This document shows, in pieces, positions 24,794 through 36,934 of a DNA stretch of 64,000 nucleotides (its first letter is position 1; each line of letters begins with the position of its first letter). Position numbers and translations under genes: made by a program. Under the pieces are notes generated by a model. That model was not told where the DNA came from. It made no database searches and worked only from the letters and a program-made list of their open reading frames with translations. This DNA comes from Verrucomicrobiota bacterium (lineage in GTDB: Bacteria > Verrucomicrobiota > Verrucomicrobiia > Opitutales > Opitutaceae): contig JAPLTN010000099.1 in NCBI GenBank assembly GCA_026398135.1, positions 1 to 64,000 of the forward strand, given 5' to 3'.

Positions 24794-24887
24794 CGGAATT
24801 GGCCGAGGACGGCCGACGCTACATGTAATGTATAGCTTACTCACATCAGGAGGTTTGTGTAGCGTTGGCCCTCGCCGGCCAATTCCG
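24794..24887. repeat. Inverted-repeat element, copy 1 (GGAATTGGCCG family)
   Basis: Two 30-bp arms (24794-24823 and 24858-24887), nearly perfect reverse complements, begin CGGAATTGGCCG and end GCTACA towards the 34-bp centre. A related copy with 28-bp arms lies at 36845-36934. The rest of the 24622-24921 gap shows no gene. The form fits a REP/MITE-like dispersed element. Confidence 0.75.
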
Positions 24888-30441: not shown

Positions 30442-33009
30442 ATGGAACCGATGAACAATTTCACCCCCCGCGCCCAGCAGGTCCTTGCGCTCGCCCGCAA
30501 GGAAGCTGATCGCTTCCACCATAACTACGTCGGCACCGAGCACTTGCTGCTCGGCCTGATCAAGTTGGGCCAAGGTGTGGCGGTGTCCGTTTTGCAGAAA
30601 ATGGGCCTCGACCTCGAAACCGTGCGCGCGGCGGTCGAAAAACAGGTCGGCACCGGCCAGGAGACCAAAAACCAAGGCTCCATCCCCTATACTCCACGGG
30701 TTAAAAAGGTCCTCGCGCTCGCCGGCAAAGAGGCCAAGGCGCTTAATCATTCCTATGTAGGCACCGAGCACATCCTGCTCGGTTTACTGCGCGAGGGCGA
30801 GGGCGTCGCCGCCCGGGTTTTGAAGTCTCTCGACATCGACATCGAGCGCACCCGCAACGAGATCCTGCGCGAACTCGATCCCCAGTTTTCCGGCGGTGAA
30901 GAGGGTGCCGGTTCCGGCGAGGCCGGTGCGCCCGGCGCGTCTGATTCCGCCGCCCGGAGCGGTGAAGAGACCGCCGCCGGTTCCGGTCGCTCCGAGGATG
31001 GCAAGAAGGACGTCAAGACCCCCGCGCTCAAGGCCTTTGGTCGCGATCTCACCGAGCTCGCGCGCAAGGGAGAACTCGACCCCGTGGTCGGTCGCAAGAA
31101 CGAGATCATGCGCGTTATCCAAATCCTCTGCCGCCGCACCAAAAACAATCCGGTGCTCATCGGCGAGGCTGGCGTCGGCAAGACCGCCATCGTCGAAGGT
31201 CTGGCCCAGGAAATCGTCAACGGCATCGTGCCCGAAATCTTGATCGACAAGAAGGTCATCACCCTCGACCTCGCCCTCATGGTCGCCGGCACCAAATATC
31301 GCGGCCAGTTTGAGGAGCGTATCAAGGCAGTGATGGACGAGATCAAGCGCGCCAAAAACATCATCCTCTTCATCGACGAGCTCCACACCATCGTGGGCGC
31401 CGGTGCGGCGGAAGGCGCGATGGATGCCTCGAATATCTTCAAGCCCTCCCTCTCCCGGGGTGAATTGCAGTGCATCGGCGCGACCACCCTTAACGAATAC
31501 CGCAAGTATATCGAAAAGGACTCCGCCCTGGATCGCCGCTTCCAAAACGTGAAGGTGGAGCCGCCGTCCATCGAAGACACGATCATCATTCTCAAAGGCA
31601 TTCGCGGCAAATACGAGGATCACCACAAAGCTATCTTCACCGACCCCGCCATCGAAGCCGCAGCCAAGCTTTCTGATCGCTACATCACCGGTCGTTTCCT
31701 GCCTGACAAGGCCATCGATGTGATGGACGAAGCCGGTTCCCGCGCCCGCATCGGCGCGTTGACTCGTCCGCCCGCGTTGGAAAGTCACGCCAAGGAAATC
31801 GAAACCGTCTGCGCCCAAAAGGAAGACGCCATTGCCAAGCAGCACTTTGAAGAGGCGGCCAAGTTCCGCGACACCGAGAAACAACTGCGCGCCCGCCTGG
31901 AGCAAGTGACCGAGGAGTGGAAGAAATCCCGCGAAGAGAAACGCGTTACCATCGACGAAGACCTGATGATGAAAGTCGTCGCCGATTGGACCGGGATCCC
32001 GCTTTCTCGCATGGAGAAAAAGGAGTCCGAGAAACTGCTCGGACTCGAAAAAGAGATTCAAAAGGTCGTCATTGGCCAGGACCTCGCCTCCACCTCGATC
32101 GCCCGTGCCCTGCGCCGTTCGCGCGCCGACCTAAAGGATCCCCGACGTCCCATTGGTTCCTTCCTCTTCGTCGGTCCGACCGGCGTGGGTAAGACGGAAA
32201 CGGCCAAGCAGGTCGCCGCCCAGATGTTCGGAAAGCAGGACGCTCTGGTGCAGATCGACATGAGCGAATACATGGAGAAATTCGCGGTCTCCCGGCTGAT
32301 CGGCTCGCCTCCCGGCTACGTCGGTTACGAAGAGGGCGGCCAGCTCACCGAAGCGGTGCGTCGCAAGCCTTACTCCGTGATTTTGTTCGACGAAATCGAG
32401 AAGGCCCATCCCGACGTCTTGCAGCTCTTGTTGCAGATTCTGGAAGACGGGCGCCTGACCGATTCGCTTGGTCGTCAGATCGATTTCCGCAATACGATCA
32501 TCATCATGACCTCCAACGTCGGCGCGCAGCTCTTGATGCGCCAGACCTCGATGGGCTTTGCCGCCGCCGGTTCCGGGGCCTTTGGCGACCATGAGAAGAT
32601 GCGCGAGAAGGTGCTGGAAGAGGCCAAGCGCGTGTTCAAACCCGAGTTCCTGAACCGTATCAGCGACATCGTGTTCTTCCGCCCGCTGGCCAAGACCGAC
32701 CTGATGCGGATCGTCGATATCGAGTTAACGAAGTTCACCAAGCGCCTCACCGAGCGTAAGATCGAGCTGACGTTCTCGGCGGAGGCCAAGGACCTGCTTA
32801 TCGAAAAGGGTTACGACGAAAAGATGGGCGCCCGTCCGCTGCGTCGCGCGGTGGAGCATTACCTGGAGGATCCGTTCGCCGAGTCTTTGCTCAAGGGCGA
32901 GATCACCGAGGGGCAACACCTGCACGTCACCCGCAAGGGCGAGGTGTTGGAATTTACCCTCAAGGATCCCAGCGCTTCATCGAGCGCCGACACCAACGTG
33001 TCGTCGTAA
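30442..33009 (+). CDS. clpC: ATP-dependent Clp protease ATP-binding subunit ClpC
   Basis: An 855-residue AAA+ unfoldase. It has two N-domain repeats ([18 protein letters not shown]), first Walker A G-E-A-G-V-G-K-T with I-L-F-I-D-E-L-H, a middle domain with a UVR motif (about 435-470), and second Walker [10 protein letters not shown] ClpP-docking loop is probably S-M-G-F. The C-terminal D2-small domain includes A-R-P-L-R-R-A. A glycine/serine-rich linker at about 152-185 is longer than usual. The adaptor-kinase pair lies upstream; clpP is not in the window. ATG 30451 is an alternative start. Confidence 0.96.
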
Positions 33010-33038: not shown

Positions 33039-33064
33039 AAGCACCGCGCGGGCGGTGCTTTTTT
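33039..33064 (+). terminator. Terminator of the mcsA-mcsB-clpC operon
   Basis: Stem AAGCACCGC/GCGGTGCTT (33039-33047 with 33052-33060), a 4-nt loop, and a run of T on the 3' side. Confidence 0.9.
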
Positions 33065-33114
33065 GTGCACGGGTTTCTACTCATTCCAGTTCGTTTTCAA
33101 GAGTAGCTTAACTG

Positions 33115-33223
33115 GTCCGGGGGGCGCCTGCGTCTCGCAGGCTGTTTCTGGCGTCTCGCCGGAAACTCAGATCACAGGGCGGGACGCCCTGCGAAGCACC
33201 CGGGACGGGTGCGCTCCCCGGAC
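33115..33223. repeat. 109-bp structured element: 13-bp closing stem enclosing four hairpins with complementary loops
   Basis: The outer arms GTCCGGGGGGCGC (33115-33127) and GCGCTCCCCGGAC (33211-33223) pair over 13 bp with one G-T. Inside are hairpins at 33127-33141 (5 bp), 33144-33166 (9 bp), 33175-33191 (6 bp) and 33196-33212 (6 bp). All four loops have five bases: GTCTC, GTCTC, GGGAC and GGGAC. The first two can pair with the last two, allowing kissing loops. It lies between two convergent genes (clpC and the EVE gene), after the clpC terminator. No coding capacity is visible. Whether it acts as DNA or RNA is unknown. Confidence 0.8.
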
Positions 33224-33245
33224 ATTACAAAGCCTCGAAATTGCG

Positions 33246-33662
33246 CTAGGCGCCCTGGCCTAGTTTTACGATGCGGTCGAATTGGGCGCGGGTGAGTGGC
33301 ATGACGGAGAGGCGGCTTTGTTTCAAAAGCGGAAGGTCGGCCAGTTTCGCGTCGGCCTTGATGGTGGCGAGTTCGACGGGGCGGGCGAGGGTTTCAACGG
33401 CTTCCAGTTCGACCGAGGACCAGTCGCCTTCGGTGGCGGTTTTATCGGGAAAAAACGCCTTCGTTACTTGGGCGGTGCCGAGCACCGCTTTGGTGGTGAC
33501 GCTGGCGTAGAAGAGAACGGCGTCGCCGGGGCGCATGGCGCGCAGATGATTTCTCGCCTGGTAATTGCGCACGCCGTCCCAATTCGTGCGGCGGTCGCGC
33601 AGGAAGGTTTCCCACGCGTAGGCTTCGGGCTCGGTTTTTACCAACCAGTATTGGGTTGTCAT
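33246..33662 (-). CDS. EVE domain protein
   Basis: A 138-residue protein made only of an EVE domain, a PUA-like fold thought to bind modified bases. Motifs: Y-W-L-V-K-T-E-P, W-D-G-V-R-N-Y-Q-A-R-N-H-L-R and G-D-A-V-L-F-Y-A-S. The length and completeness match stand-alone EVE proteins of bacteria (YtcJ/thymocyte nuclear protein 1-like). EVE domains often accompany modification-dependent defence, but no such partner is next to this gene. Confidence 0.92.
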   Translation of the reverse strand: MTTQYWLVKTEPEAYAWETFLRDRRTNWDGVRNYQARNHLRAMRPGDAVLFYASVTTKAVLGTAQVTKAFFPDKTATEGDWSSVELEAVETLARPVELATIKADAKLADLPLLKQSRLSVMPLTRAQFDRIVKLGQGA

Positions 33663-36844: not shown

Positions 36845-36934
36845 TAATTGGCCGGGGACGGCCAACGCTACACAACGCATCATCTGAAAGTAATTTGTGC
36901 AGTAGATGCAGGGTTGGCCGTACCGGCCAATTCA
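36845..36934. repeat. Inverted-repeat element, copy 2 (GGAATTGGCCG family)
   Basis: Arms 36845-36872 and 36907-36934 (28 bp each, TAATTGGCCGGGGACGGCC and so on) are imperfect reverse complements and match the arms of the element at 24794-24887. The centre (34 bp) differs from that of copy 1. It lies between the phosphatase and ilvB genes, which converge. Confidence 0.75.

Follow-up and report, generated by a model that had tools for sequence, protein, structure and literature searches.

Positions 33115-33223 of the window (the whole 64-kb stretch of DNA analysed) lie between a gene for a ClpC-type ATPase and a convergent gene of the EVE-domain type, both named from sequence (Table 1). The element found there folds into four hairpins with five-base loops, GTCTC in the first two and GGGAC in the last two; the loop letters and positions reported in the initial annotation are confirmed by the sequence and by fold prediction. 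The minimum free energy of the element is -84.8 kcal/mol, against -55.1 +/- 4.1 kcal/mol for shuffled sequences (z -7.3), and none of 200 shuffles matched it, in agreement with the earlier remark that so regular a fold is hard to obtain by chance. Folding is just as stable for the complementary strand (z -7.2). A 13-bp closing stem had also been described; 11 bp of it are the paired heads of two units, but the other 2 bp belong to hairpins 1 and 4 family-wide, since columns 12-13 of the family alignment pair with columns 27-28 inside a hairpin. The left flank may be either part of the element or old target sequence.

Table 1. Features of the element, its surroundings in the window, and alaS loci of related genomes
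Feature	Position	Strand	Remarks
ClpC-type ATPase gene	30442..33009	+	upstream neighbour
Intrinsic-terminator-like hairpin of the clpC-type gene	33040..33066	+	outside the element; also in a relative's empty site
Left flank	33097..33114	.	approximately TTCAAGNTTGGCTTAACGG; weak likeness to flanks of other near-full doublets
Unit A, 53 nt	33115..33167	+	covariance model R1, 74 bits, E 1e-15
Unit A head	33115-33125	+	GTCCGGGGGGC; partner 33213-33223 available only via inversion of unit B
Unit A hairpin 1	33126-33142	+	loop GTCTC 33132-33136
Unit A spacer base T	33143	+	between hairpins 1 and 2
Unit A hairpin 2	33144-33166	+	loop GTCTC 33153-33157
Unit B, 53 nt, inverted	33171..33223	-	R1, 76.3 bits, E 4e-16
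Unit B hairpin 2	33172-33194	-	loop 33181-33185, GTCCC on minus strand
Unit B hairpin 1	33196-33212	-	loop 33202-33206, GTCCC on minus strand
Unit B head	33213-33223	-	
Right flank	33224..33241	.	approximately CGTTCAAGCCTCGGAATT; weak likeness to flanks of other near-full doublets
EVE-domain-type gene	33246..33662	-	convergent neighbour
GTAG-type REP repeats, inverted pair	24799-24882		
GTAG-type REP repeat, single	36848-36871		
alaS with insert	G092:C37		L295
alaS with insert	G105:C5		L296
alaS with insert	G067:C44		L297
alaS with insert	G041:C122		L298
alaS split over two contigs	G016:C18, C19		L306, L352

The 53-nt unit and its inverted doublets

Used as a query against its own genome, the element recovers eight copies over most of its length (83-100% identity in the aligned part), two further copies at ~75% and many half copies of ~46 bp. 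In reverse complement, the half copies align to the opposite half of the element as well, which identifies a single 53-nt unit as what is repeated. Each unit consists of the head GTCCGGGGAGC, a 6-bp hairpin, one base, and a 9-bp hairpin, and both loops read GTCYC. The head is near-invariant, also in single units, where it is partnerless. A covariance model built from the unit (R1) was used for all genome counts and detects 45 units in this genome, of which roughly half stand alone. It is positive in 12 of the 15 genomes of the genus and in 23 of the 120 of the family, the latter spread over 17 of 49 genera; the number of units per genome is patchy, ranging from 0 to ~50 overall and from 1 to ~50 among carriers. 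In another genome, three copies of the unit (L249; G027:C1:3560182, 3560491 and 3567439) are embedded in a longer duplicated stretch, as shown by the near-identical flanks of 40 nt or more that they have in common on either side.

The stems of the unit covary. Thirty units of this genome align without gaps, with 96% of stem cells paired and 104 double-changed cells, compared with 38 after shuffling. The wider alignment of 76 units was fitted to the covariance model, which leaves the own-genome alignment as the cleaner covariation test; 97.4% of its cells are paired, 12 of the 15 pairs show double changes, and double-changed cells number 206 versus 59 in shuffles. G-U pairs make up only ~3% of paired cells (hand count from the 76-unit table), and DNA hairpins thus fit better than RNA. 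A modular dispersed repeat, one of the possibilities raised in the initial annotation, is supported by these copies and their compensated stems: the covariance-model search of the genome and its relatives and the check for compensating changes, both proposed there, yield dozens of compensated copies in multiple genera, rather than a solitary structure or stems that vary without compensation.

Adjacent units face each other with their heads outward in 40 of 41 pairs in the sequences examined, mostly across gaps of 5-14 bp. Because the units are inverted in this way, their heads pair as the apparent closing stem; because the two inverted units carry the same loops, GTCYC faces GRGAC and the loops become complementary. 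A single unit has GTCYC in both loops, which leaves no pairing between them. Of 138 loop-loop combinations in inverted pairs, 88 (64%; ~50% by chance) have a mixed variable base, so the loops are not kept complementary; in the element of the window, one strand brings U opposite G and the other A opposite C, a mismatch. The loop complementarity first noticed is therefore true as read, but its interpretation as a design or a contact fails, the matching being a by-product of inversion. Covariation sought in the loops as well as the stems is not maintained in the loops, and a five-way junction locked by kissing loops does not survive as a functional object, as about half of the copies in this genome are single units, whose two loops are identical and do not complement each other. 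Single units and the unmatched loop bases of pairs rule out a conserved kissing-loop contact; what is conserved is the 53-nt unit, not the five-way junction. Striking loop-loop complementarity can thus arise as a by-product of inverted duplication.

Genomic setting and turnover

Neighbouring genes, called by a simple codon-usage gene finder, are available on both sides for 19 loci of this genome; 11 loci lie between convergent genes, 8 between tandem genes, and none between divergent genes or within a gene. Published REP families show the same location bias (PMC3733652). The clpC/EVE site is without the element in the two closest relatives (L031, with an EVE protein 96% identical, and L032), and the terminator hairpin of clpC is retained at these empty sites; the genomes concerned (G014 and G006, respectively) have units at other places. 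Comparison of flanks between G014 and the unit loci of this genome finds only two insertions in common (C33:12475 and C37:20565). The absence from both relatives rules out the element as a conserved part of the clpC/EVE region. That it is a dispersed two-hairpin repeat in an inverted doublet is essentially shown, and its status as non-autonomous mobile DNA, with presumed transposition, is strongly supported by the sequence comparisons.

One alternative holds that the element is maintained by the host at gene 3' ends, as a bidirectional terminator, an mRNA stabiliser or a site for gyrase or a nucleoid protein, having spread long ago and been kept for its function. Such roles have been proposed for REPs (PMC3733652), and every analysed locus does lie downstream of genes, with none between divergent genes; the location bias, however, is equally explicable by where insertion is tolerated, the distribution is patchy with rapid turnover among close relatives, and clpC has its terminator in a hairpin of its own, which is conserved at sites lacking the element. 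Upkeep by the host is thus an unlikely explanation. For a mobile repeat, any host effect, such as a hairpin at the 3' end of an mRNA or the insulation of convergent genes, would be secondary.

Y1 transposase genes adjoining the units

A screen for Y1_Tnp (PF01797) genes finds such genes in the genus, among them a long RAYT of 351 aa that scores over the cut-off of Pfam Y1_Tnp and has NF047646 (REP-associated tyrosine transposase) as its best NCBIfam model, at 61.7 bits under a cut-off of 80. This gene is multi-copy, with copies in this genome (G000) on C114, C95 (L267), C26 (L144), C94 (L268) and C27 (L372), and in a close relative on G014:C29 (L171); contigs that carry it, among them C114, C94, C95 and C27, break inside or beside the gene. 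A unit lies just 3' of the long RAYT at C114, C95, C26 and G014:C29. The last three have a common tail, in which the stop codon is followed by 110-160 bp, a GTAG-type REP, ~20 bp and a unit with its head outward, and similarity fades at the outer edge of the unit; at C114 a degenerate unit begins 5 nt past the stop codon. At C94 the tail differs, and the left end of the gene (C27, G014) has no unit, leaving units on one side only. The neighbouring GTAG-type REP could be this RAYT's own substrate. GTAG-type REP repeats, GTAGCGTTGGCCGTCYCCGGCCAA, also occur in the window (Table 1), and their hairpin tip holds GTCYC, like the two-hairpin unit.

The distribution of the long RAYT does not follow that of the units: both occur in 8 of 120 genomes, where ~6 are expected. 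The remaining Y1_Tnp genes in the genus and in unit-rich genomes show no further clear unit adjacency at the loci retrieved, with one exception (L335; G016:C1 ~450292), where weak, degenerate unit-like matches flank a different Y1 transposase gene; this is possibly a diverged version of the RAYT-between-units arrangement.

That arrangement is found in a second RAYT lineage, which is bracketed by inverted units, clear on both sides, in genomes of four genera (G067, G105, G092, and G041, the last with an extra third unit). The unit-RAYT-unit block lies in frame within alaS, in open frames of 1,127-1,164 codons. In G016, where alaS is split, the RAYT and one unit are on one contig and an alaS start running into unit-type peptide is on the other. 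The inserted RAYT domain, of ~160 aa, sits in a variable loop of AlaRS; one AlaRS-RAYT protein scores 795 bits against TIGR00344 (alaS), and its RAYT part alone scores 83.5 bits against NF047646 (cut-off 80). All five alaS-borne RAYTs keep the HUH motif, as DHVH, and the YxxxNP tyrosine motif (YIVDNP, YIVNNP, YIVNNP, YILNNP, and YTLENP). Crude dN/dS estimates, with synonymous sites partly saturated, are 0.11-0.23 for the RAYT part, no higher than the 0.22-0.43 obtained for AlaRS itself. The alaS-type RAYT occurs in 5 of 252 family genomes, every time inside alaS; the same search did not find it in this genome, and alaS here and in the carriers' congeners has an ordinary short loop at the insert position. 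A PDB sequence search with the RAYT domain gave no match, and the literature searched holds no earlier report of a transposase domain with flanking repeats in frame inside alaS. In other genera the AlaRS loop in question is likewise longer, the added in-frame sequence being unrelated (L351 in G059 and L342 in G015); in G059 a RAYT gene also lies ~0.9 kb upstream of alaS.

A single RAYT for all genomes is ruled out, the long RAYT not tracking the units and the alaS type being present in 5 of 252 genomes only. The failure to track the units and the terminal inverted repeats of the doublet would also suit a MITE-like inverted repeat that depends on a different transposase and lies close to RAYTs by coincidence. 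However, half of the copies are single and without inverted termini, a RAYT is directly bracketed by units inside alaS in four genera, units end RAYT copies in the genus, and a Y1 HUH enzyme is a good fit for hairpins accompanied by an unpaired, invariant head; on a transposase screen that covered Y1_Tnp genes, a MITE is accordingly improbable.

Relation to known repeats and proposed mobility

The units are like those of REPs, REPINs and BIMEs and their associated RAYT (TnpA-REP) in being short and palindromic and in occurring singly or in inverted pairs (PMC2817692, PMC3116915, PMC3733652, PMC6006769). Further likenesses are an intergenic position at gene 3' ends, species-specific families, compensated stems, and a unit adjoining a Y1 transposase gene. 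In contrast to REPs, which have one hairpin and a length of 20-40, the unit has two hairpins and 53 nt; where REPs have a GTAG/GTGG foot it has the 11-nt head GTCCGGGGAGC, and its two hairpins share the same GTCYC loop. Features of GTAG-class REPs present here are dispersed compensated copies, inverted doublets, convergent or tandem intergenic sites, and a flanked RAYT, whereas the GTAG/GTGG foot and the single 20-40 bp hairpin are lacking; because these two strict features fail, the element is classed as a variant, though it is a REPIN/BIME by way of working. The initial annotation found no known RNA family to fit, which is right for Rfam (a search of the 64-kb window gave three tRNAs only over the gathering score and no match at the element), yet the REP/REPIN is a known kind of DNA repeat.

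Three other systems invite comparison. TIRtrons (TIRYT) are Y1 transposase genes between terminal inverted repeats, some of them double palindromes and some dispersed as dimers; their motif GGGGWSAS resembles GGGGAGCG in the unit head with one mismatch (PMC3733652). The unit may be related to these double palindromic TIRs, a likeness of description and motif. CGTC-tagged REPs are also palindromic, mostly inverted dimers, and located at gene 3' ends, but their CGTC is an unpaired terminal tag, whereas CGTC occurs only at the hairpin tips of the present unit, and their A/T-initiated stem and CCA tail differ from the unit ends; no transposase has been linked to them (PMC3733652). Membership of this group is ruled out on anatomy. 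Rickettsial palindromic elements and in-frame REPs are likewise palindromes tolerated in frame in genes, some of them tRNA synthetase genes, but the alaS described here carries an entire transposase domain with flanking repeats in frame (PMC3733652).

The best explanation, given a probability of about 0.8, is that the element consists of two inverted copies of a REP-like repeat of 53 nt and two hairpins, a doublet resembling a REPIN/BIME, and that it is presumably recognized, cleaved and moved as single-stranded DNA, likely by a RAYT. When a strand is exposed, for example as lagging-strand template, the GTCYC-loop hairpins would form; a RAYT-type Y1 HUH transposase would recognize the hairpins and the unpaired head, cleave, and then copy or move the unit, or the inverted pair, into intergenic sites elsewhere. 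Anatomy and adjacency make a RAYT the likely enzyme moving the units, and the suggestion of a DNA target for a protein, also made at the outset, gains support, with a RAYT as the probable protein. A more tentative proposal is that the unit is the substrate of the REP-type transposase housed in frame and repeat-bracketed in AlaRS in four genera, where it would be under purifying selection. A structured noncoding RNA or riboregulator built as a five-way junction with kissing loops is very improbable in spite of the stable fold and compensated stems, as about half of the copies are single and form no junction, loop complementarity is an unmaintained by-product of inversion, Rfam holds no match, copies lie 3' of many unrelated genes in either orientation, and both strands fold alike with G-U pairs scarce.

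With the REPIN/BIME-like doublet, the REP-type mobile repeats gain a form that is family-wide, has two hairpins and is non-GTAG; its many covarying copies define what the enzyme may read, with head and loops fixed and stems free. The link between the repeats and the in-frame alaS transposase domain opens to experiment how an essential gene may shelter a selfish enzyme. If the unit is the substrate of that domain, a transposase lodged like an intein in an essential gene would serve, or would have served, a population of two-hairpin REPs in trans.
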